A DNA stretch of 64,000 nucleotides. Origin: Apus apus. Taxonomy: Eukaryota > Chordata > Aves > Apodiformes > Apodidae. The notes beneath the pieces were generated by a model that did no database searches, was not told where the DNA came from, and was given only the letters and a program-made list of their open reading frames with translations. The position numbers were made by a program, and so were the translations under genes. The stretch covers positions 100,369,440 through 100,433,439 of the forward strand of contig NC_067284.1 of the NCBI RefSeq assembly GCF_020740795.1, written 5' to 3'. Of this stretch, positions 13,573-58,800 are shown one piece after another. The number at the start of each line of letters is the position of its first letter. Position 1 is the stretch's first letter.

Positions 13573-14560
13573 AATCATAGAATCATAGAATCCTAGGGGT
13601 TGGAAGGGACCTCGAAAGATCATCTAGTCCAACCCCCCTGCCAGAGCAGGGTCACCTAGAGTACATCACACAGGAAGGCGTCCAGGCGGGTTTTGAATGT
13701 CTCTGGGCAGCCTGTTCCAGTGCTCTGTCACTCTCACAGTAAAATTTTTTTTTCTGATACTCACCTTAAACCTCCTATGCTCCAATTTGTATCCATTACT
13801 CCTTGTCCTATCACTGGTCATCACTGAAAAAAGCTTAACTCCATCTTCTTGACACTCACCCTTTACGTATTTGTAAACACTGATGAGGTCACCCCTCAGT
13901 CTCCTTTTCTCCAAACTAAAGAGACCCAGCTCTCTCAGCCTTTCCTCATAAGGGAGATGTTCCACTCCCTTAATCATCTTTGTGGCTCTGCATTGGACTC
14001 TTTCCAGCAGTTCCCTGTCCTTCCTGAACTGAGGGGCCCAGAACTGGACACAATACTCCAGATGTGGCCTCACCAATGCGGAATAGAGGGGGAGGAGAAC
14101 CTCTCTTGACCTACTAGCCACACCCTTTCTAATGTACCCCAGGATGCCATTGACCTTCTTAGCCACAAGGGCACATTGCTGGCTCATGGTCATCCTGCTG
14201 TCTACCAGGACCCCCAGGTCCCTTTCACCTACACTGCTCTCCAGCAGGTCAGCCCCCAACCTGTACTGGTACATGGCATTTTTCTTCCCCAAATGCAAAA
14301 CTCTACGCTTGCCCTTGTTGAACTTCATCAGGTTTTTCCCCACCCAAGTCTCCAGCCTGTCTAGGTCTCTCTGAATGGCAGCACAGCCTTCTGGTGTGTC
14401 AGCCACTCCTCCCAGCTTGGTGTCATCAGCAAACTTGCTGAAGGTACATTCTGTTCCCTCATCCAGGTCGTTGATGAAGATGTTGAACAACACCGGTCCC
14501 AGTACCGACCCCTGAGGGACTCCACTAGTCACAGGCCTCCAACTAGATTCTGCCCCTGCT
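13573..14560 (-). mobile_element. CR1 LINE fragment with reverse-transcriptase ORF, 5'-truncated
   Basis: A CR1-type non-LTR retrotransposon on the minus strand. Its 3' end is the tail at 13573-13595 (complement of repeated ATTCTATG). An open frame of 288 codons (14532 to 13666) encodes the C-terminal half of the reverse transcriptase: a [12 protein letters not shown] block, then FADDTKL (the catalytic FxDD box, equivalent to YADD), then the CR1 thumb and C-terminal region, with [29 protein letters not shown] and [13 protein letters not shown]1, the endonuclease and the N-terminal RT are missing, as is usual for 5'-truncated CR1 copies. Compared with the sister copy at 21749-22176 it lacks 26 bp near the 3' end (between WNRLPR and the original stop), so the frame runs into a different ending. 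It is a dead insertion. The left break is clear and the right break is approximate. Confidence 0.93.
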
Positions 14561-17196: not shown

Positions 17197-17996
17197 AGCT
17201 GAAGGAGCTGGATGTATTCATCCTGGAAAAGGCTCAGGGGATTCTAGTCATAGAATCATAGAATGGTTTAGGTTGGAAGGGAGCTTAAAGATCATCTAGT
17301 TCCAACCCCCCTGCATGGGCAGGGACACCTCCCACTGGATCAGGTTTTTCAAAGCCCCATCCAACCTGGTCTTGAACACTTCCAGGGATGGGGCTTCCAC
17401 AACTTCCCTGGGCAACCTGTGCCAGTGTCTCACCACCCTCACACTAAAAAATTTCTTCCTAATGTCTAACGTAAATCTCCCCTCTTCCAGCTTTAATCCA
17501 TTCCCCCTTGTCATGTTGCTACAAGCCCTTGTAAGAAGTCCCTCTCCAGCTTTCCTGTAGGCTCCCTTCAGGTACTAGAAGGCCACTATAAGGTCTCCTC
17601 AGAGCCTTCTGTTCTCCAGTCTGAACAACCCCAGAACAACCCCAGCGCTCTCAATCTGTATGCATGGGAGAGGTGCTCTAGCCCTCTCACAGTCTTCCTG
17701 TAGAAAAATGGTTATGTAGAAGATGGGTGCACAAGGATGCCATAAGTTGCTTCAGGGGAGATGCCCTTGGACATAAGAGGTATTTTCACCATGGGATCAA
17801 TTAAACACTGGAATAGGCTGCCCAGAGAAGTGGTGGAATTTCCCACACTGGAAATAGTTGGGATATGGCCTGACAAGGCCCTGGGTAACCCTCTAAGGTG
17901 TTAACCTTAGCAGGGCTAAGGCCCTGCTTTCAGCAGTAGGCTGGGCTGGTTGATCTCCACAGGTCTCTTGCAGCTTAGATAATTCTGTAGTTCTTT
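17197..17996 (+). mobile_element. Degraded plus-strand CR1, split by a younger CR1
   Basis: Two plus-oriented CR1 pieces flank an oppositely oriented CR1. The left piece (about 17197-17245) has the 'ctggaaaaggctcagggg' motif of the region upstream of the CR1 3' end. The right piece (about 17700-17996) resumes with 'aacactggaataggctgccc', 'agaagtggtggaa' and the closing ggctgggctggttgatctcc and attctgtagttct tail. The copy is strongly diverged, so it is older than the insertion inside it. Outer boundaries are approximate. Confidence 0.7.
17246..17700 (-). mobile_element. Minus-strand CR1 LINE fragment nested in an older CR1
   Basis: It starts with the CR1 3' tail 'tcatagaatcatagaatgg' at 17247 and runs through the typical minus-oriented sequence ('ggttggaagggagcttaaag', 'ccaacccccctgcatgggca'). 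The minus frame 17514-17296 encodes a C-terminal CR1 ORF2 fragment with GLKLEEGRFTLDIRKKFFSV and [20 protein letters not shown]. The element is 5'-truncated at about 17700 and lies inside the plus-strand CR1 pieces. Confidence 0.88.
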
Positions 17997-18989
17997 TATT
18001 TCTTTGTGTCCTCAGCTGTCTTTTGTGCAATGATAGTCACCCCTACCACCTGTCCCTGGTCTTCTCAGTATTGTACTGCTTGTGCTGTGGCAGGTTCTGT
18101 GTTACTCAGTCATGCTAGAGGAATAGGCTTTTGTCTTCTCATTTGGAGACGTGTGAATAGGGTTGAGGCAGTACCAGTGCCCAGGGGACTTCCCAGGTTC
18201 CAGCTGGTGGAGCTACACATGCATATGGGCTTTGTGACAGCCAGGTAGTGTCTTGGAAAAATGTCACTTCACAGTAGAACACTAAAGAACAATATGGCAA
18301 ATTTGTACAGATGTGAAGTCACTCTAGATTTCTCTGCCTGTTTTTGTATAATTAAATGAGCCAAAAGCTTAGGACTCACCTATGCTAACAGGTAGCATCA
18401 GTGTGCCTTTTGGGGATAACATCTACCAGGCTCTGTTCCACGTAAGAAGTTTGGATGTAACAGAACTGTTTGTGGGGGAAAAGGGAAGGAGATGAGGAGT
18501 ATTCAGACATGTGGAGCAGATGCCAGGTCATCTCAGCACCAGGAAACAAGTCTCTGACTCCTACTATTTAATAGTGGACATGTAGCCTAAACACCCAGTC
18601 CCATCTTTCACTAATGCTTGGTTCAGTACGAGGTCAAATTCTAGGATTTAAAATCTTGTTCCAGGTCACATTGATGAAGACTAGATGTATAAATAATTTA
18701 AAAAATAATAATCTAACTGAACCAGACTGAACCCTCTTAGATTCCTAGGAAAAAAATGCTGCTGGGCAAATTGCACTAAGAAAATGTCATAGATTCACAA
18801 TAAGAGGACTGCTGTGGCTGGACCTCAAACTCCAGCAGCTAAGTCTTCAAGCCTGTGAAAATAAATTAAAAAAGCCAACATCCCAGAGAAGTTTCAGCAT
18901 CAAGAGTTTGAGGTAGCAAGCGTTTCTCTGTTTTAGATGGAGAAGCAAAGGAAAAAAAAGAGAAGTCTATAAGATGTCTGGCAGCTACT

Positions 18990-19235
18990 GAGGCTCGGCT
19001 GGTTGGAGAAGCGACGGACTTCCCCTCAGAGCTTGTTTTTCTTTTTATCCTTGGATGAACTAGCGTGCAGTATATTATGCTGCCTGACCGTAGGGGTTTG
19101 TCACGGTTAGCGCCAGGGGCCGTTCCGGGAGCGCAGGAAGGCAAGGGGAGTGAATGGAGCATGAGGTGGTCGCTGGGGTTGGAGCCCGCTCTTTCGGGAG
19201 ACCTGCCGCTGCTCCTCCCGGCTCGGCAGGCCAAA
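18990..19235. promoter_or_regulatory. Isolated CpG-rich patch, possible promoter or 5' exon
   Basis: About 17 CpG dinucleotides fall in roughly 240 bp by eye, against an AT-rich, CpG-poor surrounding. Such small islands often mark promoters. A plausible splice donor (AG|GTGGGT) lies at 19250-19251. On the plus strand this could be a 5' exon of the PR-PLAGL1 gene 13 kb downstream, but the open frames ending at that donor do not have the phase needed to join directly to the exon at 32218, so at least one more exon or a different donor would be required. The function is inferred from base composition only. Confidence 0.3.
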
Positions 19236-20473
19236 GCTGTGCAGGAAAGGAGGTGGGTCTTTGATCTCTTTGTTGTAGCTGCTCCCTGGGAATTTGCTGA
19301 AATCAATGCCCTGTTTTCCTGAAGAAATGAATGGCTATGCCTAACTAGCTTTGTGAAGCGCTTGGGAATTCACTGCTTCTGTTTATTGACAGCTGAAAAG
19401 GAGCACATGGTGCTGAATGGGTCCTCTTGGGGAAACAAAACAGAGCAGAGTTAGACTTAGCTGAGCACAGGGACATTTGGAAAAGTCTGCTGAAGGAAGA
19501 TGGCACGGTTCCTGCCACCTTCTAGCATAGCCTGACTTTTTACTAAAAGTGCCATTTTAGAGAAGGTAAGGAATGTTTTTATTTCCCATGCGTAGAGTGA
19601 TTATGAAACATTTGCGTTTGTCTTCTTGAATGCAAAAGTGTTTGAATTTTATTCTGTTACGGGGACCAAGTGACTCTTGTGCTGTTTCTAAGCCTCTGTG
19701 TATGTTCATTTGTTCTCTATCTACTGTTAATTAATATGAAAAGTAAGAAGAAGTAATTTGGTATTTGGTCTTGCAATCAGGTCCTGAACTTCAGTCGTTT
19801 ATGTAGATTATTATATGCAGTTTTTATGTTCTTGAGAATCAGTTGAACTGCATCAGATGATTTCTTGACTGGTACAAATTGCTGCTTTAAAACTTAGGCA
19901 CAAGGCAGTGACTCACAAGTGGCCCTGTCTGGCAGAAAATCCTTGAAATGTAAGGATATATTTCCAAACCTCTGTTCCTAGGCTCAAGGCAAGAGATGGT
20001 CTTAAGTTTGCTGGTTTTGCATGCGCAGTTTTTTGTTGTAAAGACAGCAAAGAGTAGCAAGAGGAGGATGATAATGAAGAAGCAGTATTCTCTTCATTCG
20101 AGTCCAGAACAGTTTATCAGACCAAAGGAATTTGGTGTGTAATTCATATGTAAATTTTCTACTGAAAACAGGAGAACAAATGGTCAGAGTTTCTATATTA
20201 GTTTCTGTGGTGACTGAAGAAAAAGGTTGCTGAGCTTACAACTTTCAGGTGTGGCCAACTTAAGACTGCAGGAAAAAAAAGTTAAGTAATGCCATTTTTT
20301 CCTTTTGTCAGTTTAAGTGTAAGGGCAAGTTCCGAAGGGAATAATTGCTGTTGTACTGGTACGAATTGCTGGTTTTGTGTTGCAAACCTGCTTCAAAGTG
20401 CTTGTGTATGCATGCAGTTGTTTGGAAACTCTTGAGTAAGTCTCTCATTTTGAGGGAAGTGTTTAGGAAGTTC

Positions 20474-21748: not shown

Positions 21749-22176
21749 AATCATAGAATCATAGAGGTTGGAAGGGACCTCGAAAGATCATCTAGTCCAA
21801 CCCCCCCGCCAGAGCAGGGTCACCTAGAGCACATCACACAGGAAGGCGTCCAGGCGGGTTTTGAATGTCTCCAGTGAAGAAGACTCCACAACCTCTCTGG
21901 GCAGCCTGTTCCAGTGCTCTGTCACTCTCACAGTAAAAAAATTTTTTCTGATACTCACCTTAAACCTCCTATGCTCCAATTTGTATCCATTACTCCTTGT
22001 CCTATCACTGGTCACCACTGAAAAAAGCTTAACTCCATCTTCTTGACACTCACCCTTTACGTATTTGTAAACACTGATGAGGTCACCCCTCAGTCTCCTT
22101 TTCTCCAAACTAAAGAGACCCAGCTCTCTCAGCCTTTCCTCATAAGGGAGATGTTCCGCTCCCTGAATCATCTTTG
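21749..22176 (-). mobile_element. CR1 LINE 3' fragment
   Basis: The 3' tail is at 21749-21766 (complement of repeated ATTCTATG). The minus frame 22171-21824 encodes the last 115 residues of CR1 ORF2, including [40 protein letters not shown] and [20 protein letters not shown], ending at the normal stop. It belongs to the same subfamily as the copy at 13573-14560 and is nearly identical where they overlap, but keeps the 26 bp that copy has lost. It is 5'-truncated at about 22176. Confidence 0.93.
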
Positions 22177-23537
22177 AATAAATAGGACTTTATGGGGTTA
22201 CATTATAATCTGAGTTTGGAGTGCTTCATTTGTGTAAAAAGATCTGCAATTTGTTCTAAACCCACAATTTTTTGCAACTCTCAGATATAATTCTCCAATA
22301 ATATTCTGTAATGATGTACTTTGTAGTTCTCTATTTTAGACAACTAAACTCAAGGCTATCCATATGCCTGAGGAGAATAGTTAGCACAAGGAAAATGTAG
22401 GATACTGCTGCCTAATTTTTGCTGACAATTTTATTATCCTTTCCTGATCAGTCTGTTAAAGCTCAGATGGACGTTTCTTCAGTGCAGTATCAGTCAAGAC
22501 ATTCAATAATTATCTTATGGTTCCCACTGGAAGTCTTTAGAGTAGAAAAAAGAAATGTATCTTAAATCTCAGGAAAAAAGGGACAAGTAAATGGAAACAC
22601 AGATATGACATTTGCCTGTGTATTTTTTTCACAGAAATACATTTTTGTGTCTGTTCAGTAGCAGAGCTTCCCAATGTCCATGTTGGTTGTTCTGGTTTTT
22701 TTTAAGAAAACACTACATGCCTTAAAAGAGGAGAATAATTTTAACAGGATCATGAGAGTCTCCTACTCATTTTGTTCCCAGAGAAGCTGGGGATCAAGCA
22801 TCCTTTTTGTGTTCAAAATTAAGCAAGTAGTGACAGAAGTTTTTGGCTGAGTCCTCTCTTTTGAAGGTGATGCACAGTAAGAGCCTAGCTGGTCTGCTAA
22901 GCTGTTAATGACCCTTCATTTACAAAAAAACAATGCTTTTAAAATAATATTTATACATTTCAGTAATTTAAATATATGCTTCAAGATTCATTATTTAAAA
23001 AAAATCCACACAACTTTTTTGTTGTTCTTTGGGGCGAAATGAAATACCAGTAGGAAGTTTGGATGGTTCACTGCAAAAGTTAAATGATTTTCCAGTTTTA
23101 TTGAGACTTTGTTTCCACTGATTAATATGAGTTGGGAGCATTCTTCCAGGATTGGCCCTCCACAGTCTCAACACCCACTAGTCCTGGGTGTCTGTGTATT
23201 CACTTCTCCACATGGACTTCCTTTTTTCATAATGTGGCTAATTGCACATCAGTAGAGCCAATTGTATAGATTTCTACCTGCAGAACTATGTCCCATGGTT
23301 TTTACACTGTACTTTTATTCTCAATAGCTGCAGCTTGGTTCATTTAGTTATAACTGCCTCTAAAGACCTCAAGTTCTCCAGCCACAGGATGAGTACAGCA
23401 TCTCTTCGCTTTCATGCCAGGCTTCCTCATTGCCTCCTGCAGTAAACTCACATTTCCTTCTCCAAAGCGTTTCTACCTGCCTGTTTCTTTCTACCAGTAA
23501 ATGGATGGAAATACATCCCAGCCTGTTTCCTAAAGAG
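22177..23537. other. Non-coding region
   Basis: AT-rich spacer between two CR1 fragments. No exon, RNA gene or repeat could be supported. Confidence 0.5.
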
Positions 23538-23985
23538 AATCATAGAATAGTTTGGGTTGGAAGGGACCTTTAAAGGTCACCTAGCCCAACCACCCTGTAG
23601 TGAGCAGGGACATCTTCAACTAGATCAGGTTACTCAGAGCCCCATCCAGCCTGACCTTCAGTGTTTCCAGGGATGGAGCATCTACCACCTCTCTGGGCAA
23701 CCTGTTCCAGGATTTCACCACCCTCATTGTAAAAAAAGTCTTCCTTCTATCTAGTTTAAATCTGCCTTCTTTTAGTTTAAAACGATTACCCCTTCTCCTG
23801 TCACAACTGGGTCTGCTAAAAAGTCTGTCCCCATCTTTCTTATAAGCCCCCTTTAGTTATTGAAGGGCCACATTAAAGTCTCCTGGGAGTCGTCTCTTCT
23901 CTAGGCTGAACAACCCCAACTCTCTCAGCCTGTCTTCAGCAGGAGAGGTGTTCCATCCCTCTGATCGTTTTTGTGGCCCTCCTCT
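23538..23985 (-). mobile_element. CR1 LINE 3' fragment
   Basis: Minus-oriented CR1 with tail 'aatcatagaatagtttgggt' at 23538, followed by 'tggaagggacctttaaaggt' and 'ccatccagcctgacc', through to 'ctctcagcctgtcttcagca' and 'atccctctgatcgtttttgt' at its 5' end. No intact frame remains. It is a more diverged subfamily than the copies at 13573 and 21749. The right boundary is approximate. Confidence 0.9.
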
Positions 23986-26900: not shown

Positions 26901-29900
26901 CTCCTTCCCTCTCCCAAGAACTTAGGAGTATATATCCTTTTCTCCCCTGCGCCCCCCTTCTGTTTTTGGGGGGGTGTTATTTTGGGTGAAAGTTTATGGA
27001 AAGTACAGTGCCTGCTTCTCAAGTAGTATGCAGTGTGGTGCATATATGTGCAAGTTTGTAGTCTTTGCTCAGGGGAGCAATCCTGGTTACAAAGTCAGCC
27101 CAGAGTGTGGTTTCACAATTTATTTATTTTTACTGTTTTTCTGTGCAGAGCTGAGCAGTTGTAACTCTCTGTTAATGCAGGGTTTTGTTGTATGAGAGAG
27201 AAAAGACATGAAAAGGACACATTGAAGAAATGTTCACCTATTTTTGTGTTGGACTAGGAATCAGACATTACCATTAAAAAGTGAAAATCAGTCAGCAGGA
27301 TGTTCAGCATGACAAAATATAAGAAGTTAATGGGATTTTAATTAAATTATTCTGAATTTTGCTAATTATAGCAAATTCTGTTTTACTATAGTATAAATAG
27401 GATGGATTACTAATCAGTTAAGAGCTTCAACTCCTTTGTAAATGCACTTTGCACATCAAACTTGGGAGATGTGGGGCTTCTTTCATATATGTTTTTTACA
27501 GAGGAAACGTGTGGCAGTGACCCACAATAATGGGAAAATAACTTGGGATTCACTGTTTGCTAATTGGGGACTTTTAATTTTTTGCCAAATAAATTATATT
27601 ATGGAACAGTATCTTCAAGCTTTTCTAAGCAAGGACAAACTGCAGGGCAGGAAAATCTTATGTGCCTTTCTGTAAGAAGAACCAAGGCTCGCATAGAGCA
27701 CATGAAATAGATATTAGACAGAAAACGTCCACAAGATGTGCCTGCAGAGCTCCTCAGCTTGAGAGCTGAACAGGGCTAAGGGGCAGTACAGTTTTACTTT
27801 GGGATAAATTACTGTTGTTTGCTATGCAAATCTTATGATTGTAATTAGGCTAGGATTTGGACTGCTGTGTACACTGATCTTTGTTCCCTCTGCACACGGG
27901 AGCTAATTCTAATGCAGCAAAACAGCACAGCAAATGTTGAGCTCTGCTGAGCTGGACAATCGTTCCTCATGGGGCGTCTTTGCACATTTTAAAAGGAATT
28001 CTTTACCTCTGCCTTCACGGGGCACGTAAATTGTACCACAGGCATCTTGTGGGCCACGGAGGTGTTCAGGTACCGTAAAGTCTTGCTTGAAAGTAGAGAT
28101 TGGAGAAAGCAGGAAGGACTGCACAATAGGCATCTAGTTTTTAGCAAACTGGTTTTAAAACGTGGTGTTCTGCCTTGGATTGGTTAAGGATCTGGTGGTA
28201 TGTTAGAGCTATCACGACAGTGATTGCAGTTCCTAGTATGGCTATGTATAGCTCCCGTTATCTCTGCAGCCGGACTTGGTGTAACCGCAGCCCGTGGCTC
28301 CCTGCCTACACTGACGAGCTCTCCCCGAGGCCGGGCTTGTGCCTTGTGGGGGTGGCACGGCGCTCTTTTGGAAACCCGAGGTTGTTAACTGTGCTCGAGT
28401 CCTGCTTGCCTCAGTCACTGCGCTAGCTTGGCTGCTGCTGGCTGTGGGGAGCTTGTCCCTGTGCAGCGTGGCCAGGCCTGGAGCTGTATGGAGGAAAAGG
28501 CAAGCTGGCTGCAAAGGCTGCCAAGCTGTAGTCCACAGCAAAGGAGAGCTGTCGCCTAGACCTGGACTGGGGGGAAGCACCATTGTGCTGAGGATGATAC
28601 AGGTGAGCCCCACTCGCAACCCCCTCTTCCCCCTGGGAACGTGGCCACCTCACATGGTGGCCTTTTGTGGCCAGCCCATGTGGTGGGAGTGATTCCTGCA
28701 GGCAGCAGGCATCATTTTTCCACTGACCCAGAAGTCAGAGGAAAGCCATAGCTGCCAACCGTGCCTCCCAAGAGCTGGGCAGAAAGTGGGAGCAGATTCA
28801 TGCGGAGCTTCTGGGCTGGGGGGCTACAGGTGATGTAGTTAGCAGGGCACAGGCACCTTCTCCGTGTGACAAGGTGGTGGCTGAGCACCCACTCCCTGCT
28901 CGGAGTGCACCTGCACCCACAGCCATTCTGGGCTCCTCTGTACAGATGCCTCCTCACTGCTGCAGTGGAGCTGTGCAAATTAAGTCCTATTAGCAGTAGG
29001 ATCTATTATTAGATTGTGTAGTTTTATTACAGGTAGATGAAAAATGCATTATTTGGAACTTTTTCACAATCATTGGAAAGCCATAGGGAAAGAACAAAGA
29101 AGTACCCTCCAGGGGACAATATAGCACTGCTGCTGTAAAGATACAGTAAATGACATGATCACTTTTTTAACAGCTTGTAACTCCTGTGAATCTCATTTGT
29201 TTATTTTCGTTGCCTACTCATCTAAATCACAGGAAAGCAGAGGAATGGAGGCAGTTTTACTTTTTCTTGCATGCTTGCACATTGTCAAGTATTCTTGTAA
29301 AAATGACATTGAATCCATTAATTTTGTTTGTGTAAATACAATTTAAGGGTGCAGGGAAACTGTAAAAGCATCAAAAGATGTACTAAAGTGCCTAACAAAA
29401 AGTAGAAAAAAATCTTCACAGAAGGTGATTTTTCTTACCAAGTGCACTTTATTCCTGATGCTAATACAATGTGTGTTGTTTCCATAGTTGGATACTCTAT
29501 TTCAGAACAGGTTAGAGTGTGTTCTGAGGCTGTTGTTGAAAAAATTATTTCACTTAAGCAGCCAATATAAAAGGAGGCACAAAATCTGTGAGCTTTGCAA
29601 ACCAGTGCTATGCTGCAGCTATGATAATGCACACATTCCTTCACTGAAGGCATCTGTAATTTAGCACTGAGACACAAAGGATCGTGAGGAAGAAACTGGA
29701 CAGTTTTCTGCTGTTACTATGAGGGGAAGAAATTAAAAAGACCCCTGTTCCCCAGGGTAATCCCTACAGTTATTATATTTACAGTGGCCCAATCGTGTGC
29801 TTCTGGTACACCCAGCAGTTTTTAGTGTGCAATAAATTCAGTGTCAGAATACTAATGTGCTGATGTGGGGTCAGAAATACTGTGTCATGGATGTAATTCC

Positions 29901-32217: not shown

Positions 32218-35200
32218 GGTGTGAGGATTGCGGTAAAAGCCTTGTAGGAGAATGCAAACTCCACGGGCCACTCATCAGGGCTAGGGACAGGGTTATTCCT
32301 AGCCGAGCCCGTCTCACCCTACCTCATTACCTCACTTTGCGAGTGTTGGAGCTGCGAGCTGGAAACGAGCAGAGTAAGTATTGTAGCTCTTTTTCCCACA
32401 TTTCAGACAGGCCAAAATCCTAGCACTGGCTTTCTTCATTAATAACTCCCAAGGCATAATCATTGGGTATTAACAGTATGAAGACTACTTTATTTCAGCT
32501 GAGCACAGCTAAAGCTCACGTTCAGCTGCTGTTTTCTGTGACTGATTTCTAGTAACCTTGATACGTAGACTGACAGCAGGACGTTAGCCAGAGCTGGTCA
32601 GACATCTAGTTGTGAGCAATCAGTTAGCTATATTCAGTCTATACAAGTTTAATGAATGTTGAATTTGTGTCTAATAGTAACAGCCATGCACTATTACATT
32701 TATTTTTTTTTCCCCAAGCATGCAAAACAGGAAGGAGTATTCAATAAGAGGTCAGAAACAAAATAGTAAGCAGCATCCCTCATCCACCCCCCTGCAAACT
32801 CTATAAAGATCACAGTGGGTTAATTTACCTTTTGCAGCATCTTCAGTTCATATTATGGATATACTGTTCTTTCCTTCTGAGGGCAGGGGGATTTAAATGC
32901 CCAGACTTGAACAAGGGAACTACATCCTTAATGTGCAAATTTTCCACAGCTACCTGTGTAAAATGAGTCCTGCCAAGATTGCGTTTCAGAAGGAGAATGA
33001 CAAGATTCCTCTTGTGTCACACCATTGGTATTAGGCAGGGGGATAACTAGAATTATTAAGGTGGCTGATGTTGTGTTTTTATAGATTCTCTCCACTCATA
33101 TTGGGAGAGCACTGTGATAGCATCAGCTTGTAGATTGAAGGAATGTCAACACCTTTGTGTTGCATACTAAGTTTAATATCCTGTCATATATTTTAGGCAT
33201 TTCTGTATTCAATGTAATAACCATTTAAAAATAAAACCTCTGTATATATTTACATCCTTTTCAGATTCTTTTTGTTAGAATTATTTACCTGGGTTATTTG
33301 TCTAGCAGAATTCATGTGTTCTGCACTGTTGTGTTTATCTCTATTTGCACAACTCTAAGCATACTAGAAATAGTTCATGATGTTTATATTAATATTAGAC
33401 TGGTCTTTTTTTATTCATAGTCCTTGGAGTATTTGCAAAGAAAGTAATACAGAAGAGAACACAGTTTGGTCCTTATGTTGGTCAACTGTCTACAAAACTG
33501 ACCTGCTATGATGAGAGCAGGCTAGTCCTGCAGGTAAAAACCCAGTGACTTACTATGAAGTGCATATGTGTCTTTAACATTATATGTATTTATATATTTT
33601 AACAAGTCAATTTGCCATCTAATCTAGTTAATTAATTGTACTTCCGATCTGTATGTATGAATGTAAATCACATTGTTAGACTGCACAACATATCCTGAAG
33701 TACCAAAATTTTCCTATATGTTGTATTTTTTAAAAGTTTGTTTTCCTGCTTTCTAGTTTTACCACTTCTAGGTGATTTACCTGTCAATCTAACAGCTCTT
33801 GATAAACTTTTCACAAAGCACAGCTTCTGAAAGCATCCAAGGATAGTAGTGCCTTCCTAGATAAACAAAAGGATTTGTGCATAAAACCACGTTGCTCGGA
33901 GGGTTCAGTTTGTGCGCTGAGTTTGCAGTAGTGGCAGAAATACATGCTAAGGCACTTGCTCAGTAGAGAGGAACAGTGCAGGAATGGGAAACACTTCTTA
34001 ATGCTGTGATATATGAATCTGTAACACAGCGCACTGACTCAGTTATTTAGTCAGATTGTTATTTGGGGCTGCACCATCCCTCGCTGCATGTGCAGGTACT
34101 GATCACCTCCTGTGGATCATGACGCTATTGTTTGTACTTTATCCAGCACAAATAGCAGCCACTCAGGACTAGCCTTAGAAATACCTGTATGCATGTCCTT
34201 TCCCACTGGAATTCCTTGGAAGCGATAGTTGATCATAATTCTCTGCACTCCCATCTTCACATTTTGCTGCACGTGGCCACACCTGGGCACACCTCTCTGT
34301 CATGCAGCAAGACTGTGGCTTGACCACAGACTTCATCAAGATTTCCCAACAGGTTCTTCCAAAGTCTGTGTTTCATATCAGGCCCTCTCACCCCCCAAGA
34401 GAGAGGGACCAGCACCAACTTCCTCCAGAAGCTTGGACCTGGAAAACACTGTGTGTTGAGGTGGAAGGCAGAGATACAGATACTTCTTTAATTTTGTTTG
34501 AGAGCAAAATAGCGTCAGTAATTGCTCTAAACTTCATTAGCTCATGGAAGTCCTGTGAATGGTCTGCCGGGAAAGTGAATGCTGTCCTCCTGTGGGATTT
34601 TCATAACATGTTGGGACCAAAGAGGATTTGTTCTTCTCAATAACTAATTATTTTCTGTCTTTTCATGAGACACTTTAATTCTTACAAATGCAGAAAACTT
34701 AGTCCTCTAACAAGCTTGCAAGCATGGATGAGCTAAGCACCCAGTTCCTTCCTCTTCACCAAGCCATTGTAAACCACACCCTGACTATCAGTCAACCCCT
34801 TTGCTTAAAAGTATGCAGTGATAAGCAGAGCTCTGGCTGATGAATGGACTGTTTCTTCAGAAAAGGAGACTAGAGTTCCAGGTTTCCTACAAGACAGCAG
34901 TAGCTGCCCTGACTTTTCCCTAGCAGCATTCTGAATTTTTGACCAAAAAAGTCCATCAGACTGATGTTTTCACTGTAAACATGATGAAGTTAGAGAAAAT
35001 AATTCCTAAAATTAATGGAAATACAACTTTTTCTTTGCAATTCATTGCTCACTTATGCTGCTAGTAGAACAGATACGTGCTGTGCTGACATCTGTTGCGC
35101 GTGTTCCAGACTATATTGAAGTAAAGGAACTGTCTTGTATGAGGTCAGGAGCGTTTGCCTTGTAGAGGCATTCTCTTGGAAAGGAATCTAGGAGGAACAA

Positions 35201-38200
35201 AGTAAAGGAAAAAGAAAGAGATCTTTCTGGCCTGATTGTTCATTTCAGTTTACTTTTGCATTGTTAAGGGGAAAAAGAGAAGACTGTTAAAATGCCATTA
35301 TATTGTATGTTACCTCTCTGGACTTGTTACACAAGCTACACAATTGTTCCATGCAAAATGTAGCTTTAATACAGCACTAGAGTTTGAGATTATCACGTAC
35401 TCAGGAAGTACATTAAGGCATAAAGCTTATCTTCCTACCTGCACTTAGTTCATATAATATTATCTTCATATAACATGAAAATGATGAAATATAAACTGGA
35501 AATACATACAAAGGCCTACAGTTATTTTAGTAGCTGAGTGCCTCGGCATCTATTCGTTCTTCACTTTCTTTTGCACTCTGTATTCTTTGAGAGTGATCTA
35601 TTTCAAAACAACCACCATTTGAAAGGACATATGACCAAGACAGGTTAAGTAACTGATAGCCTTGATTCCAAGTTAAAGAAAACTAATGTGCCTTTATACA
35701 GGACTTGGTTTTGTCATGTTCTTTCTCCTGTCCTTCCCCATTGTTTCAGGTCTTGAAAGATGGAGGGAAGTACTTTCTGGACACTCCCAATGAAGACTGT
35801 GGAAACTGGATGATGTTTGTCCGGCTAGCCCGGAACCAAGAAGAACAGACTCTTGTGGCTTATCAGCACTGTGGAGAAGTCTACTTCACAACTGTTAAGG
35901 TAGTTAAACCCACAGTGTTTCACCTGTCATCCAAATTGAAATGTATAGGCATAGGTTCCGAAAGGCTAACCCGTTTACGGATGAAAAAGTGATTATATTG
36001 TGCCAACTGGATCTTTATATATCCTTTTATATCACTTAATCCATAGTATAGCAAGCAGTGTATGGGGTTTTCCAGTAAAAAATGGTGTGTACTTGCTGTC
36101 ATGGGTAGTGAAGAAACTGAACAGAGTAAAACAGAAATATAATTCATGGTAGCAGTGTTTAAATGTGAATTTTGTAAAGTTCTTCAGTCCCAGATAGGTA
36201 CATGGTGAGATGATCTAGCATTGTTACATTCAACAGTACTTCCTCCTATACGCTTAGGAAACTGAAGTATGTTGAACATTCATTGTTTTTCTTTTTTATT
36301 CTGAAGTCAATGTTTGTGTATCACTGTGAACAACACTTAAAATGAAAACAGATATAATATTAGTCAAAAGACATTACTGTGGGATTAAAATTCAGCATTT
36401 CAATTTAATTTCCAAGATTGGCACACATTTTTGTGATACAGTAGTGTTTACTTTTGTTCCTCCACGGTTGTTTATCTACCTACACAGTGAGAAAAATATT
36501 TACCAGACTGACAATGTGAGAAGTTAATAGTGATAATATTTTACACCTTCAAAGTCTTTTATTACAGTGTGAAGTATAGTTGCTTTTGGATTAATATTAA
36601 AATAATTATTTTTAACAAATGAAAATGAATGTAAAATAGTAAATGCTACTCTGAGATATTGTTTATGCTGTGTTTGAGATTCTGATGCAGCATTTGAGAT
36701 TTCAGTTTGATTTCAAATGCGTGCTAAACTTGTAGAACTGACAGAATTAGTAACACTGTGTCTGGGAAGCATAAACAAATGCTTTTCAAAGAAGTTGAAG
36801 TTGTGAACTGGTAACTTAGAATTTCCACTACCATTTAAATACTATTGAACCAGCTCTCTGCTGATTTCAGCATAACTCTGCTCATTGGCATGAATGGAGA
36901 GTTGCATTCTATATATGGACATGAAGAGTATGTTAGGATGAGGAATGTACCTTGGAACCTTCACTGTGCTGTCTGTCACAGGGAATTACATTGGTTTTGT
37001 TTCTCCTAAGTCCCAGTATCATTCTCAGTACTGTGGCATCCTGCAGATCTTGTTCTGTTCAGCAAAAGTGATAGCCTTTTCCTAGACTTAAGCACACCCT
37101 GCTGGCCACAGCATGAGGCTGCCTTAGGGCTGGTTATGAAGATCTTTTCTCAAGTTATTTTGGATAAAGTCTGTTAAATTGGGAGTAGAAGGATTGGCTC
37201 CTCCCCCCACTGTTTTTACAAAGGCATGGGATTTTGGTGACATGAAACTGCAGCTTCAAAAGCACACATGTAAGTGGCACACTAACAGCACTATTAGTGT
37301 ACTTGCTGACCTAATGACTGCAGTCCCTAGAAGTGTTTTAAAGAAGTATAGAATTATGAGGGAGTAGAAATCATCCATAGTTGCTGACTTGTCTGATCAC
37401 AGGACAGTTTTGCATAGTTGCTGCCACAGCTTTCTGTTATTGTCACAGATAAGACAGAGTAAATGACAGCTTATAGTAGGTTTGGATACTGGCGTTTAAT
37501 CTCAGTTTTACTGAGATTAGAGCTTTTAGCTTACTTGACTATTTCACACACTGATGTGCTTGCTGTCCCTCCAAAGTTTCATTGACTAGGTCTCAGCTTC
37601 CCACAGAGTTCTCTGCTGGTCCAGGAACGTCAGGCAGGAAGTCATGAAGGTATCATCCTATGTAGCTTTTTGTGGGTTGCGGTCTCAGGTGTCACTAGCC
37701 ATGGTCCCAGGGCATCTCCAAGCATGTGTCTCTGTGAACCTACCCCAGGCTTGGTTCTTCTCCATCTGAATAGACTATATGCAGGAGCACAGTGCATGAT
37801 AGGCCTCCTAGTTGGTGGCTGTGCCTCATGTCCTTTATTGAGTGGAGAATTCCACACATAGCATTTATGTTTAGGCCAGGTGTTATCAAAAGGCACAAGC
37901 AATCCATACTGGCTGTAGTTAGCAAGCAGACTTGTGCCTGGGAGATCAAAAGTTCACTTTTTGACATTATACACACAATTACCTTTTACCTGTTAACATT
38001 CACAATTTAATTATCTTTCAGCTGTCATGTTTATCCAACACCAATGTTAAAAAATAAGTGCATTTTAAGATGTCACATTTTGTGGAATAAGTCTCAGCTG
38101 CTCTTCTTCCAGGCTAGTTTGTTCTTTTTAGTGATACAAATTTATCATAGAATCAGAGAATTTAGTTTAGCTTAAATAAAACTAAACGATTGATTCTATC

Positions 38201-39128
38201 CCTGTTGCAGGAAAATTATTTTTTATTACAGATTAAAAAGACTGTGTAGAGGGCCAGGGAGCCATATAAATCATGACCACAAACTTAGTTTTCTCCTTTG
38301 CTTTTAAATAACTAACGGACCTTTAGCCAGTGAGTGTAATCACTCCTCTCTTTTTCTATTTGATGTGTTATTGACTCAAAGTATTTGTCAGAGGAGGTCA
38401 TAGTTCAGTGCAAGGAAAGATCTGGGCAGGCACGACTGGATGAGACTGCAGATAGTGGGCTCCCTTAGAGCTGTGTGGGAAGGGAGCCAGCACATGGAAA
38501 CATGCAAGTTTCACTTGCAGTCCATATATTGATCAACTCTGCACCCATGTTGCCTGAGTGCAACACATCCAGGAGGCAGCCAAGCTCTTGTGCATTCACA
38601 GTGCATTTTTCCTTTGATTGTACCCTATAGCGAAGTGTTTTGTTCCTTGGGCTTTGCAACATCAAGGAATAGGCCTGGGATGTTGTTTGGAAAGACTGCT
38701 GGACATCACAGACAAATAGATCTCACTGGGTAAGGTCATGAGGGCTGAGGCACCTCTCCTGCTACTTTTCCCCCAAAATTTCTGTACATTTGTATTTCTG
38801 CTTTTAGAAACTGAAGGTGTCAACCCTCCTGAATAGTAATTCTCCAAAAATGCTTGAATCTTGAAACTAACTTACTAATAATTTAAACAGATTCAAAGAA
38901 CGCAACCTGGGAAAGGACACAGATTGCACACACAACTTATCTCCAATCTTCAGTATTTGGTATAGGAACATTTGGGCAAGTAAATGTGCTGTTTTCTTCC
39001 ATTCACAGCCAATTGAACCCCATACAGAATTGAAAGTATGGTATGCTGCCGATTATGCCAAATTTATGGAAACTTCTGCAGTCTTCATTAAAGAAGAATC
39101 TGATATCTGTCCATTGCCTCCAGTAGCG
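32218..39128 (+). other. PR (PRDM-type SET-like) domain module, four exons
   Basis: Exons 32218-32373, 33421-33533, 35750-35899 and 39009-39128 encode the N-terminal zinc knuckle and PR domain of the composite gene. From memory the sequence is closest to PRDM10-like PR domains (shared [21 protein letters not shown]), and unlike PRDM9 it lacks the VWYGDEY form. PR domains are related to SET methyltransferase domains; many lack strong activity and act in protein binding. After the PR domain, FIKEES (K167) fits the SUMO consensus (hydrophobic-K-x-E). The introns inside the module are about 1.0, 2.2 and 3.1 kb. Confidence 0.9.
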
Positions 39129-42100
39129 GTAAGTACCCCTGATCTGCATTCAAACCATCACCAGACATAGTAAATTACAATTTACATGTTTTCTGTGTTT
39201 ATGTAACTCTGGTAATGCTGGACTGGACCACAGTGTAGTAGCCTGACACAAAGCCAAGAGCAACTTGAACCAACAGTTACTCAAAGAAAGGCTGTTCTTC
39301 ATTTCTTGTGTTCATAATCCAATAGAGCCATTAGATATCACTGGAAGTGAGTGGCACCAGTGTGATGTGTTGGAAAGACTTGGATTAATTTGTAGATAAC
39401 CAAGATGCCCAGCCTCAAGCTTCTTTCCCCAGTTTCCCTTTATTATGCCCTGACTGGCTGGTCAGATAATGCACCGATGATTTCAGTTTTTCCTGTGCTG
39501 TAACACTTCTAATTCCAATACTATCCCCTCTCTATAGTAGTAGGAATCCTTAAACTCATAGGAGAAGCTTGTAAGCACTGAATATATGACCATGAGGATT
39601 AGTACCTGCAATAGATGGAAATGTTAAACGGGAATATAATAAAAGCAGGAATTCAGAGGTGGTTCAGGAAGGAAGTAACCCTGTTTTTGCATTTGCATGA
39701 GGGCCTTAGAATACACCCCAGAAAGAAGGGGTGGGAAGGCCACAGCATCAGACATAGATAAGGTAGAGGGGAGGGCACTGTCTGTAAAGACAGAGTAGGT
39801 GTAGGCTCAGCATGTTCTCAAGAGCAAGCTAGCCCAAGAGCACGGGAAGGTAAGGACAGTGTATGAGAAGCTGAAGTAAAATATAGAGACAGGAAGTACA
39901 TGGTCGAGTATTAACTGGAAGTACATTTCAGTAGTGACTGCAGGGGTTTTTTTGTAATTGTTTTTCATTGGATTTTAAAGATGTCTATATTTAAAGTGAA
40001 TTCAGCTGAATCCAGTAGAGCTTTCATTTCCACAGAAATAATACTTCCAAATAATGCGTTGCTGCCAAAAAAGCTTTTATGTTTTAATGCCTCTAAGACA
40101 GGATGGGCTTGATATTTCCAAACTTAAGGTGTTTCTTATTGAGTTTAAGTTTAATGCCAAATGTCAAGCTAAGTGAAGGAGTCTCTCTTGGAGACATTGA
40201 CCATTACTGCCTGGTAAAGTATGGAGTCCTCCCAAAACACAAGGGAATCCTGTATAGCTAAACTACATTTGTGTGCAGAAACTCACCCAATTTTTGTATG
40301 ATTGCAATGGCAGATAAATTACATCAGTCTAAGGATAAAGGATAAATTTGCAACTGCTTTTACAAGTAATTCCATACAAGAAACAAATGTAGAGACTTTG
40401 AAATTCTGTAAGCACAAGTAAACAAAGGTGAAGGACTCGGGACAAAACCACAGAAATTGGTATTTTGCCAACCATTTTTTTTTCCTTCTAGTTTGTAGAC
40501 TGGTAGAGAGAATCCATTTCCAGCTGAACAGCTCTGTGGTAGTACACTGAAGGAAATTACAGTAGGGACAATGACCGGTCTTGGGAAGGCCCAGGAAAAG
40601 ATGAAGTGTCAGTAAGAAGAATATTACCTTCCCTCAGAACAGCTAATAAGGAAGACCTGTTTCTGTTCTCATTGCAGAAAGAGCCTATAGAGCCTTGGAT
40701 ATGCTCCAGCTGTGGAAGCACTTTTGCAGCTTTTGCTCTGCTGGAATCTCACCAGTGCATGCATAAAGACCGAGTCCTTGCCACCAGGTTCAGATCGCCA
40801 AATAAACTGGGACCTGTAAAAGCAAAAAGCAAACTCAAAGGGAAACTGAGAGCAGCGGCACTGGGCAAAAGCATCGCCCAGTGCTACGGGACCTGTTCCT
40901 CTGCTGCAAAGCTCAGCTGTGCCAGCTCAGGAAGCACTTGTGATGCACTTGGGAGGTTTATACCTAGATGGAGAAATGCCCGGTCTTCGCTGCTGAAAGG
41001 AAGGGAGGTGAAGCAGCCCGACGGCTTCCCCTGCCGGCTCTGCGGGAAGGTATTTGATTCCCTGGATAAGCTCACAGTCCACACGTACGCGCACAAAGGG
41101 GAGCGCCCCTACAAGTGTGCACAGCACGGATGCACAAAAGCCTTCATTTCCAGATATAAACTGCTCAGGTACAGCACTGAAAGCAATCCTTTTCTGCTGA
41201 GTGTGTGTGTGTGTGTGTGGGAAACCAAGGACATCTTTTTCCTCTCAAGTGCCCTAGTGACAGTTAATCCCCAAGTTCCAGTGTTTATTATTCCCATTTG
41301 GGTAGAATTGGAGAAAACTAATCTCCCTCAATTGCAGCAGCTACTCAGAAACGTTATATTGAGCAATTTTAATGTACTATGATTAACACCTTCCCCCCAG
41401 AAAAGTCAGGTTTTTCCTAATAGTCTGAGGATTTGTGAAAAAGCCTTCCTTGGAGAGTGCCAGTGTTTTGAAGTCTCAGCTGCACTGTGTACTAGAGTGA
41501 ATGTAAATGCAAATAACTCTTTTCTTTTGTCTCCCTTAGGCACTCAGCCATTCATTCTTCACAGAAATCTCACCAGTGTGGCTACTGTGAAAAGACCTTT
41601 CACAGGAAAGACCATCTAAAGAATCACCTTAAGACTCATGACCCTAACAAGATGGCCTTCAAGTGTGAAGACTGTGGCAAGAAGTACAACACCAAGCTAG
41701 GCTATAAGAGACACTTGGCTCTTCATGCAGCCACCAGTGGGGACCTCACCTGTAGGGTATGTGCCCAGGAGTTTGGCGGTACTGAAGTTTTGTTGGAACA
41801 CCTCAAAAGCCATGCAGGGAAACCAGCTGGCAATACCAAGGAAAAGAAACATAAGTGTGACCACTGTGAGCGTCACTTCTATACCCGTAAAGACGTGCGG
41901 CGTCACATGGTAGTTCACACAGGCTGCAAAGACTTTCTATGCCAGTTTTGTGCCCAGAGGTTTGGACGGAAGGACCACTTGACTCGCCATACTAGGAAGA
42001 CTCATCCACAAGAACTGCTGAAGAGCAGATTGCAGAATGGGGACTCAGTGGGTCTCCTTGACCAGCTTTTTCCACTCAGACTGAAGGAAGATGCCAGCAT

Positions 42101-42815
42101 ACTGTCTCCTTTTCCTGAAAGGGTCTCTGTGCAGAATGGGATTTTGAATAGTTCTGAATCAGAGGAATACAACTGTTCACATCTTCATTCCCAGCCAAAC
42201 TTACAAACTGCTCTTCCTGTTGAACCTTCTCCTCATTTGCAAAGGATGGGCTGTGCAGACAGCCTTCCAGCTGTCCATCCCACACCATGCTCAACAGCCA
42301 TTCCTGCCAACCTGAACCTTCATCAGCCTAGTAAATATGACCTTAGTTCTACCTCATTTGCAGCAGGATCCCTCAAGAATCTTCCGATAAAAGTGGATGT
42401 TAAAGGTTACAACGTGCACCTACTTGAGGACCTGCCATTACCAGAACCTCAATCTCTGCAGAAAATCAGTCTGGAAGAAGCTTCCTCAGGGCCTGTAGGG
42501 GATACTAACAAGTACCCAGTGCACAAGGAGACAGAAGCAGCAGCTGAAACTGCGAGCCTGCCTTTCATGGATCTCACTCATGTGATGAGTTTCTGGCAGC
42601 TCCCACCAGGCGACAACCAGAACACTACTGGGGACATCACAATGGCTTTTGGCCCAGAGGAGCCATCCCACAGGCTGAATGGCCTTGGCCAACAGCAAGG
42701 TCTTCAGCTAGCAGCTGGTGGGATGGCCATAAACCAGCTGCATCATCTTCCTCGCTCCTTTCCATCCACTACAAATTCTGTAACATTGCCTCATTTTCAT
42801 CATGCCTTCAAGTAA
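32218..42815 (+). CDS. PLAGL1: PR-domain/PLAGL1 zinc-finger transcription factor (5'-incomplete)
   Basis: Exons are 32218-32373, 33421-33533, 35750-35899, 39009-39128, 40678-41168 and 41540-42815. All introns are GT-AG and the junction phases 1,0,0,0,2 agree. The decoded part is 767 residues, counted from the first Cys. Residues 1-19 form a zinc knuckle (CEDC, then GEC and LHG). A PR domain follows to about 155, with the marks [23 protein letters not shown] and [11 protein letters not shown]2H2 finger 188-208 is the usual post-PR finger, then a Lys/Arg-rich linker. Seven PLAG-type C2H2 fingers span 298-498, including [17 protein letters not shown] and [15 protein letters not shown]. The tail 499-767 keeps PLAGL1 blocks ([29 protein letters not shown] end). 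The family binds GC-rich DNA and regulates transcription in the nucleus; mammalian PLAGL1 is an imprinted growth suppressor. It is odd that PLAGL1 carries a PR module and lacks its usual start Met. The start exon is missing: exon 1 here needs one base from upstream. Identity is very sure; the fusion rests on shared exon 40678-41168. Confidence 0.93.
41201..41218. repeat. (GT)9 microsatellite just inside an intron
   Basis: Perfect GT dinucleotide run beginning 32 bp after the splice donor of the exon ending at 41168. Length variation here is likely. No direct function is shown. Confidence 0.9.
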
Positions 42816-43168
42816 CTGTCACAGTGTTTGTTTGTTTGTTTTCCTTATTTTTTTAAGACTCTGCTTTTTACTTAAATCTGTTAGGATGGGGTGTTTTTGG
42901 TTTGGTTTTGGTTTTTTTGTTTTTGTTTTATTAAGAAAAAGTGCCCCAAATGTTTTCAAAGCACGTTATGAAACATGGTAGTTAAATTCAGGATGTTAAT
43001 AAACAAGAAGCTCTATTTTTCATACTACTATTAGTTTTTTAGGATATGACAACAGTAGAACTAACATATTTCCCTCAACACCCTCTGTATTTTTGTTTCT
43101 TACCTTTCCTGCAAACAGCTGAATAAATATCTTCAATTATAGTAAAGCATTGTAACAGGCACAATAAA
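42816..43168 (+). terminator. PLAGL1 3' UTR with poly(A) signals
   Basis: Sequence after the TAA stop at 42813-42815. It contains a T/G-rich low-complexity stretch (42826-42935) and AATAAA hexamers at 42998-43003, 43122-43127 and 43163-43168. These are candidate polyadenylation signals; which one is used cannot be seen from sequence. Confidence 0.55.
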
Positions 43169-55800: not shown

Positions 55801-58800
55801 CTGGAAACAACATACCCAAACGCTCAGTATGAACACACAATTACGTATGTGAAGCAGTACTTCTGGGAATACATACTCCTTTGCTTTCTCTTTGTAGTAA
55901 TCATTCAGGACTTCCTGCAACCGAGTGTTGTCTGTGTTAATATAGCCTTCCAACTCCACATTATCCAGGGCTCCAATTTCATCCTCATCGAACTGTTCAA
56001 AAAACTAAAATAAAGAAGCGGGTATCTGCAGTTAGATCATATTTGCCACACAACTTCTGGATAGGTTAAAGAAGGTCTACACGTTTCTATTTGTCCCTTT
56101 TTTCTCTTCCCTCTCACTTGCTGAACTGCTGCCAACCACATCTGCAGTAAGATTTCCTCCTTACTGTCAGTTTTCTTCAGCACGGGGGTAACAAAGTTAT
56201 ATTTTAATAATATATAAATCAGTTCCTAGGAAAAAAAAGCAAGCCTGTGACTAGTCAGGACAAAAGCTACACCATACTTCCACTGCCCTGACATCATTTC
56301 CTGAAGGCATGCTTGGCACAGCGGTGATAAAGCAGGAAAGAAGGGAGTCTTTACTAGGCACTTGTACATGACTTGTTGAACTGAGCCTCTCAGACAGAAG
56401 CATAACTCCAGCTGTACCTGCTCATTATAACGACTGGTGTAATTCTATGTGACTATATCCATGTTGGGCCTTTCAATAGCAATTAACACTAACTATTTAA
56501 CACAAGCCTCTGAGCACACACACTACTAAATACGGTATATGTGCAAAGAACAGCTGCTTGATGCCTGACTACTGAAGGCAGTAAGAATTTGCACAAGCAT
56601 GAAGGTCACCACCTTATGAGAGGAATCAGAAGCCAAAGCAGCATTTAACAACCTTATGTTTAAACGTTACATTCTTGAACTGCCTCACCTTCTCAAATCT
56701 GTCATCCAACAGGGTTAACTGCTCATTCCTTCTCATCACTGAAGACGTCATAGAATATTCTGTGAAACGACTCCTGGTTTCTTCTTGCATAAAAAGAAAT
56801 TCCTTTGTCTGTCCATTAACCCCATCATCTGATAAAGGACCTTCTGAATCATAGTCTTCATCATTACTGCAACTATCATTTCCATCACTGTCATCCTCCA
56901 CATCTTCCCATTCATCTTCATCCTCAGCATTTGATCTCCTGAACAGAAGTATAAAACAGTTTTAGAATAATACATGGACCTTTCCACAGCTCTGACCAGT
57001 GTTGTGATATCTGAAAAAAATTTGCAGTAATAGATAAATCTTGAGAGGCAAAGATAAAAAGTGATTATTTTCAAGCCAGTAAAAACAAGTTCAGTAGTAA
57101 CAGTGTTGCCAAAACCAGCATAATATTACTTTAGTCTGAAAGCTGGAAACATATCTGATAACTGTTGGGTCACACATCTGTGCAGTGAAAATGAGGTTAT
57201 GTTCACATTCAGCCATGCATGTGAAAGTAGAAAAAGAAACATACTATCTGTGTTCTTGAGTATTTTAACTAGCAAAATTTCTCATTGATCATAAAATGAT
57301 GAGAATTATACCAGAACATAAAGAAATAACATGCAGTGGGGTATCACAAAGTATTTGTAAAGGTTCTGGAAAAACCCGTTAGCCTTCACCAATGTAATTA
57401 CTGATGTATTTTGAATGTGATAGATGCTGATGCTTTAAGTAGTTGACGAATCCTATTATTCCATACATTGTGTACTGTAAACAAACATATAATCCATGAG
57501 CTCAAAGTAAAAATGAAACCCATCTCTTGGAAAACACATGAAAATCTGATTTTGTAAACTACTACACACATAACACAAGGTAATACTTTTTTTCTTTAAC
57601 ACTCCTACGTACTCAGTTAGAAATCAGAAATGATTCTTGCTTCCTGCAACAACCACATGAAGTACAAAACAGCATCATTACTATTCACACATGACAAACA
57701 GTTCTGCAATGCTCTATATACCTTTTCTGTGGTTCATTTGCTTGCAGAACAAAATCATCTTCCAGAATATTTTCTGGATTATCAAAGTCAAAATCATCAT
57801 CGAGGGCTGCAACAATATCAGGGTCAAAATCTAGCCGTGGTCCTAGAAAGAAAAAAAAAACAACACAACAACAAACAACAAGATAAATATGTACTTTTCT
57901 CTGACATTACAAAGCTACTTTTCTGGATAAAAAACAATGCAACTAGACTGTTAATTTGCACTAAGGGAAGATTAAACCTAAGAATCAAAATTCCTCAACA
58001 ATATTTGTAGAGTTGATACAAGCCAGGGCAAGTCACCAGACTCCTGTCAAACTTCCTCATCCAGAAAATAATATTTTTGGAAGCTTAAGACCTCTGGGGA
58101 ATGTATTTTAATGTATTTTACTTAGAATGTTTAAAAGAAAAGTATCCAAGTTGAAGCACTGCATATCAGCCAAACCTAGCTCCCACCCCTTAAAACTCCC
58201 TATAGTATTAAGAGGTCAGAAATTATTTATCTGCTGCAATTAACGGAAGTGTCTTTAGCATCCTTCTGCTGGGACAAAGAATTTCCACAATTCATTCCTG
58301 TTATAAAACATAAGGTAGCTGCAAACTGATTGTTCAGTGCAAACATAGATAAGTAACAAAAATATACTTAACAGCCTGCAGCACTGAAATAATACTGATG
58401 AAGGAAAGTACACACCACTTTGCATTTGAAAAGAAATTTTGAGGGTGAATATCCAGTTCCAGACCTGGATTCAAACAGATGAAATAATAAATGAACAGTC
58501 CAATCTACTGTTTTCCCCTGTTATTAGTTCATATTTGTTACACAACAGTATGAGCTCCCACCTCCCCAGCAAAGCTAAAAAGCTATTCTTAGTGAATCAC
58601 AGCAATAGCGCTCAAACGGAAACAGAGTCTCTTATAGATGATTCTTTATGTCTGCTACTGAGCCCGTTCTAAACCAGAAACATAATTACCAGCTAGTATA
58701 TAGATGGCAATTTGTGTTACAGAAAAGTAAGACTTAATGATACCTGAAACAGGAGCAGCTTTATTTAACAAGCCCACGTCCTCTTCAAACTCTGTGGCAA

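Follow-up and report, generated by a model that had tools for sequence, protein, structure and literature searches.

Organization of the locus

The stretch of DNA considered here is a 64,000-nucleotide segment of the Apus apus genome (assembly GCF_020740795.1, contig NC_067284.1, positions 100,369,440 to 100,433,439, forward strand), called the window below and numbered from its first nucleotide. It contains a gene that is probably the avian PLAGL1, in which exons for a zinc knuckle and a PR domain of the kind seen in PRDM proteins precede the exons for the PLAG fingers in one reading frame. In mammals, decades of work on PLAGL1, a tumour suppressor and regulator of growth whose gene is imprinted, have treated the protein as zinc fingers with no further domain.

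Six plus-strand exons with GT-AG edges, a to f (Table 1), join after two leading bases into a single frame of 767 residues, the only stop of which is the terminal TAA, and the in-phase PR-PLAGL1 exon chain is thereby confirmed. The predicted protein contains, in order, a zinc knuckle, a whole PR domain, a post-PR finger, a basic linker, seven PLAG fingers and a PLAGL1-like tail; eight C2H2 fingers, one PRDM-like and seven PLAG-like, are C-terminal to the PR domain. A preliminary description of this DNA had proposed that the knuckle and PR exons splice in phase into exon e, that exon e carries the post-PR finger, the linker and the first PLAG finger, and that the next exon completes the seven fingers and a PLAGL1-type tail. 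The first of these proposals was borne out at the level of the frame (GT-AG edges, one terminal stop), the second by the single open frame of exon e, and the third by a finger scan and by comparison of the tail. The exon coordinates given there were right within one base, some edges shifting by that one base.

Splice sites were ranked by a consensus score drawn from general knowledge against all AG or GT sites in the window. The 6 acceptors of the chain fall between the 95.4th and the 99.4th percentile and the 5 donors between the 94.6th and the 99.6th, the latter value being that of the exon d donor, which pairs in phase 0 with the acceptor of exon e. The four PR exons give 179 codons without a stop or frameshift, all of their splice sites intact, and random slides of this four-exon chain along the plus strand left a 179-codon frame open in 0 of 19,863 cases. 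Within the window, a C2H2 pattern scan of both strands found seven fingers, all in exons e and f, and none elsewhere that the PR exons could use; the last intron runs through the eighth finger, PLAG finger 2, which falls outside the pattern matches. Because the scan matches only the last two exons, the PR exons have no other nearby finger array to splice to.

Table 1. Features of the PR-PLAGL1 locus and its surroundings, in window positions unless the contig that holds the window (C4) is named.
Feature	Position	Strand	Remarks
Exon a	32218..32373	+	C2HC zinc knuckle and PR domain start; enters in phase 1 (? before the junction, GG TGT after it); acceptor at the same position and phase as in PRDM10, PRDM15 and PRDM4 of this genome
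Exon b	33421..33533	+	PR domain
Exon c	35750..35899	+	PR domain core (VLKDGG...TTVK); phase-0 intron before exon, common to PRDM4, PRDM10 and PRDM15
Exon d	39009..39128	+	PR domain end and short tail
Exon e	40678..41168	+	A single open frame for the post-PR C2H2 finger, the basic linker, PLAG finger 1 and the beginning of PLAG finger 2
Post-PR C2H2 finger	40702-40764	+	In exon e
ATG	40759..40761	+	Sole in-frame ATG between ATG 39066 (PR domain end) and ATG 41652 (PLAG finger 4)
PLAG finger 1	41032-41094	+	In exon e, same frame as post-PR finger
Chicken Zac1 forward primer	41113..41132	+	Exon e; 1 mismatch in 20; primer from PMC4991769
Exon f	41540..42815	+	Remainder of PLAG finger 2, then fingers 3-7 and a PLAGL1-like tail that ends in LPHFHHAFK; stop TAA
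Chicken Zac1 reverse primer	41643..41661	-	Exon f; 1 mismatch in 19; same source
AATAAA signals	42998, 43122, 43163 (42998..43168)	+	3' of the stop codon
LTV1 exons	56626-60078	-	Downstream of PR-PLAGL1
SF3B5	C4:93692507-93692761		Same contig as PR-PLAGL1
CpG-rich stretches upstream	C4, about 100365040-100366540 and 100350140-100351740		Candidate PR-PLAGL1 promoters

Relationships of the PR domain

Residues 47-160 of the predicted protein match the Pfam family PRDM2_PR (PF21549) with an E value of 4.4e-38 and 130.2 bits, against a curated cut-off of 27. Among solved structures the best match is the PR domain of PRDM10 (3ihx, 2.8e-25), followed by those of PRDM4 and PRDM11. A search of the 1.10 Gb Apus apus genome with the PR half (contigs labelled C1, C4, C5 and C21, the window lying on C4) gave 18 matches at E up to 1, four of them the PR-PLAGL1 locus itself. 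The best match outside that locus, at C1:99.14 Mb, is PRDM15 by its sequence. Paralogue names are assigned here by sequence: C1:99.14 Mb is taken to be PRDM15, C1:149.84 Mb to be PRDM4, and the remaining matches that were read are presumably PRDM genes as well. Two weak matches of 31-32% identity, at C5:39.58 Mb and C21:1.04 Mb, carry no gene name; these two aside, no free-standing third gene of PRDM10/15 type occurs among the genome-wide PR matches.

A PR-domain tree, as proposed in the preliminary description, was drawn from 8 rows, all of them PR domains of this one genome, with the PRDM1 and PRDM5 rows partial and long branches flagged. It places the window domain with PRDM15 and PRDM10 in one clade (support 82/90, unstarred), with no firm order inside the trio. 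Over the PR region the window shares 79/153 residues with PRDM15 (51.6%), 71/147 with PRDM10 (48.3%) and 68/152 with PRDM4, and PRDM10 shares 70/148 with PRDM15, which puts the window domain about equally far from each of the two as they are from one another. Because of this equal divergence the window domain is, judged by these identities, an old third lineage of PRDM10/15 type and no recent copy.

The residues of the domain appear to be about as well kept as those of PRDM10, PRDM15 and PRDM4, where a drifting remnant would be expected to look otherwise. Of the residues invariant in the latter three proteins the window keeps 37/47, and the corresponding leave-one-out counts are 37/45 for PRDM15, 37/49 for PRDM10 and 37/51 for PRDM4. 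Four introns lie at or in the knuckle-PR region. Two of them, a phase-1 intron ahead of the knuckle and a phase-0 intron ahead of VLKDGG, occupy the same places in all four genes. The intron between exons a and b (phase 1) falls within a few residues of its counterpart in PRDM4.

The likeness to PRDM15 and PRDM10 takes in the C2HC knuckle, the PR domain, the post-PR finger and the introns before the knuckle and the PR core. PRDM15 also has a tryptophan two residues before the first cysteine of the post-PR finger and a basic linker after it, but its post-PR finger is split by an intron and that of the window is not. Both proteins differ from the window gene in having long finger arrays of another kind (read in part from this genome), in place of seven PLAG fingers and a PLAGL1 tail. 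A knuckle and PR domain ahead of a finger array, as in the window gene, are also found in PRDM9 and PRDM7, which are defined by their KRAB and SSXRD domains; the PR match to these is, however, weaker (1.3e-16 versus 2.8e-25 for PRDM10).

The PLAG half and its neighbourhood

A genome search for PLAG genes, in which 90 of 448 candidates were given a score, singles out three loci by a wide margin: the window, PLAG1 and PLAGL2. Over the parts compared, the window fingers are 80.5% identical to those of PLAG1 and 72.3% to those of PLAGL2, and the last intron splits an arginine codon in PLAG finger 2 at the same place as in PLAGL2. The tails, in contrast, are only about 30% identical (29.8% to PLAG1 and 31.0% to PLAGL2), versus 46.4% between PLAG1 and PLAGL2. 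These figures support the window gene as the third, divergent PLAG gene of this genome. A further difference is that no PR exons were found at PLAG1 (a 30-kb stretch in which 412 bases are N, the PLAG1 finger-1 exon falling outside the comparison) or at PLAGL2 (20 kb), and no genome-wide PR match lies near either gene.

Mammalian PLAGL1 (ZAC1, LOT1) shares with the window gene the seven PLAG fingers and a tail ending LPHFHHAF. Its finger 1 comes only a few residues after the start of the protein, which is not known to carry a PR domain, a post-PR finger or a long linker. The neighbourhood also fits PLAGL1 on one side, where LTV1 exons (Pfam LTV over its cut-off in 3 of 3 frames tried) lie downstream; LTV1 is a neighbour of human PLAGL1. 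SF3B5, the direct neighbour of human PLAGL1 on the other side, is 6.7 Mb from PR-PLAGL1, and this distance points to a rearrangement that disrupted the block on the upstream side of the gene.

An origin of the PLAG array from PRDM15 fingers was rejected. Genome-wide, the PRDM15 pair ranks third among non-PLAG matches (35.2 bits versus 35.7 and 35.5), and the reverse search places the window far down a list of 150 (32.1 bits). When finger loci were compared directly with the array, the PRDM15 finger exon at C1:99121319-99121450 scored 109; eight other finger loci were tried, of which two gave no qualifying frame and six scored 74-92. The PRDM15 exon (C1:99.12 Mb) is closer to PLAG finger 3 than the majority of C2H2 fingers are, though not uniquely.

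Elsewhere in the window, a strong CpG-rich stretch at 61.3-63.0 kb may be the LTV1 promoter. A reverse-transcriptase fragment (RVT_1) on the minus strand at 13666-14568 is probably from an old CR1-type long interspersed nuclear element, and fragments at 17296-17574, 21824-22189 and 23620-23856 resemble it by eye.

Start codon and upstream region

The frame that enters exon a meets a stop at 32190, with no ATG between this stop and the exon, so that at least one further upstream exon is needed. Around PLAG finger 1 (residue 296) the in-frame methionines are residue 207 and residue 381, the latter in PLAG finger 4, and the next one above residue 207 is residue 159, where the PR domain ends. The nearest in-frame ATG upstream of PLAG finger 1 is therefore 89 residues away (ATG 40759), and its context, CAGTGCATGC, is poor, with no purine at -3 and no G at +4. 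The frame of exon e has no start codon near PLAG finger 1 of the sort that mammalian PLAGL1 has. Since there is no nearer in-frame ATG, the full seven-finger protein must start at residue 207 or upstream of it; the one exception would be a first exon, so far unseen, that joins exon e at an internal site.

The window and the preceding 30 kb were scanned for exons that open with an ATG and end in phase 1, the base before the GT being T or left free. Several weak candidates, such as MSTDLL at 16003-16021, were set aside as none stands out, and a scan that required a strict Kozak context and allowed few donor sequences left one poor candidate. A similar scan recovers MAEDGSDEIIFV for PRDM15, presumably the N-terminus of that protein, and nothing credible for PRDM10.

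The strongest CpG-rich stretches before the gene precede the window start by 2.9-4.4 kb and 17.7-19.3 kb. Weaker ones are found 6.3-6.9 kb upstream of the window and at 18901-19400 and 28001-28500 within it. No stretch of intron d/e rises above the CpG threshold; within exon e, 40801-41200 is weakly CpG-richer.

Transcription and published accounts

Transcription of the PLAG end in a related bird is indicated by work on chicken. In that study, Zac1 mRNA was detected in embryonic retina by quantitative reverse-transcription polymerase chain reaction (qRT-PCR) at levels low but above background, and the functional arm used mouse Zac1 (PMC4991769). The chicken primers match either side of the exon e/f junction (Table 1), so the amplicon should cross the last intron; the result bears only on this last junction and not on the PR join.

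For birds, a survey published in 2007 puts the number of PRDM orthologues at 16 (PMC2082429). A 2020 paper calls the biochemical function of the PRDM10 PR domain unknown, and describes activation of a reporter by the N-terminal part of PRDM10, with the PR domain, together with the fingers (PMC7368010). No report of a PR domain in PLAGL1 was found in a literature search that left most subscription papers and automatic genome annotations outside its scope, and the exon model may already be present in a database unnoticed. Collections of prokaryote contigs (23 pattern matches) and virus contigs (6) yielded 0 confirmed relatives, which is uninformative on vertebrates.

A probable PRDM-type PLAGL1 gene and the alternatives

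Taken together, the locus is very probably a single protein-coding gene, the bird orthologue of PLAGL1, that encodes a knuckle and PR domain of PRDM10/15 type, a PRDM-type finger, a basic linker, seven PLAG fingers and a PLAGL1 tail. The composite reading of the preliminary description holds in so far as splice phases, domain scores, residue conservation, PRDM intron positions and the want of any ATG close to PLAG finger 1 point to an in-frame PR-PLAGL1 gene; its word 'fused' may mislead.

Several observations weigh on the other side. The join between 39128 and 40678 is a prediction from genome sequence, and the exon chain was read in one species. A first coding exon with a start codon was not found in the window or the preceding 30 kb. 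The intron before PIEPHTE is private to the window gene, its place being absent in PRDM4, PRDM10 and PRDM15. No branch of the 8-row PR tree, with its partial PRDM1 and PRDM5 rows, is starred, and the tree gives no firm order among the window, PRDM15 and PRDM10 (59/27). With SF3B5 so far from PR-PLAGL1 on the same contig, part of the history of the region is missing.

With regard to that history, PLAGL1 may by origin be a protein of the PRDM10/15 kind, the PR domain of which has been kept by birds, and perhaps by all non-mammalian vertebrates, and shed in the mammalian line as transcription passed to promoters next to the PLAG exons, one of them later imprinted, and translation to a new start codon three residues ahead of finger 1. 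We propose this tentatively, at a probability a little short of even. The PR half would, with less assurance, have been present in the amniote ancestor, and its loss in mammals would have come with a switch to promoters nearer the PLAG exons and to a new start codon immediately ahead of finger 1. Since the PR domain appears to be an old PRDM10/15-type lineage of its own, ancestral retention is estimated to be at least as likely as a new fusion; the age of the lineage speaks for an old gene, and a lineage surviving only inside PLAGL1 would agree with the finding that no third PRDM10/15-type gene stands by itself among the matches.

The opposite course, by which an independent PRDM10/15-type gene was joined to PLAGL1 by rearrangement in birds or sauropsids while mammals keep the old form, is possible and should be taken seriously, although we regard it as rather doubtful; this estimate concerns history only, apart from the rival gene models below. 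The distance to SF3B5 suggests a rearrangement upstream of the gene, and neither PLAG1 nor PLAGL2 has PR exons in its own stretch or near it genome-wide. The PR domain is, however, about as divergent as the PRDM10/15 split, and a recent fusion would need a donor, for which the genome search offers no free-standing third gene beyond the two weak, unnamed matches.

As to the gene model, PLAGL1 without the PR half could be made if transcription began within intron d/e or translation at ATG 40759, the PR exons appearing only in a minor or read-through transcript. Such an in-frame ATG does exist, the stretch at 40801-41200 is weakly CpG-richer, and human PLAGL1 has more than one promoter according to one account (PMC5619815). 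That ATG, however, has an unfavourable context and would start the protein inside the post-PR finger; intron d/e nowhere passes the CpG threshold, and the strongest CpG stretches lie upstream of the window. The PR residues are, moreover, kept about as in PRDM10, PRDM15 and PRDM4, and therefore the PR form should matter. This arrangement is considered unlikely.

A PR domain that formerly belonged to the gene and is decaying today is very improbable, for although no first coding exon was found in the window and the preceding 30 kb, the PR exons remain open and intact at their splice sites and the invariant residues are largely kept. Least credible of all is a chance in-phase join of two adjacent genes, a PRDM-like one ending before PLAGL1. 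AATAAA motifs do occur within the introns (for example at 39638), but the pattern scan of the window shows no further finger exons that could belong to the PR exons, the PRDM-type finger shares one exon and one frame with PLAG finger 1, and the strong exon d donor is matched in phase to exon e.

Implications

PLAG fingers bind GC-rich sites, and those of the bird protein would be expected to carry it to such sites in DNA. There the PR domain could serve as a platform on which co-factors dock, and a PRDM-type partner would in this way be brought to PLAGL1 targets by the bird protein. A division of labour like that of PRDM10 might be expected, the PR domain recruiting partners and the fingers binding DNA.

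PLAGL1 may thus be a PRDM protein outside mammals. If birds make PR-PLAGL1, catalogues of PRDM genes miss one member, and the chicken experiments with mouse Zac1 used a form that birds may not make (PMC4991769). The gain or loss of a whole domain beside an imprinted promoter would then be a testable event in the history of imprinting. If the proposed origin is true, a human tumour-suppressor and neonatal-diabetes gene would be a truncated PRDM factor, and its ancestral co-factor docking domain could be studied in chicken.

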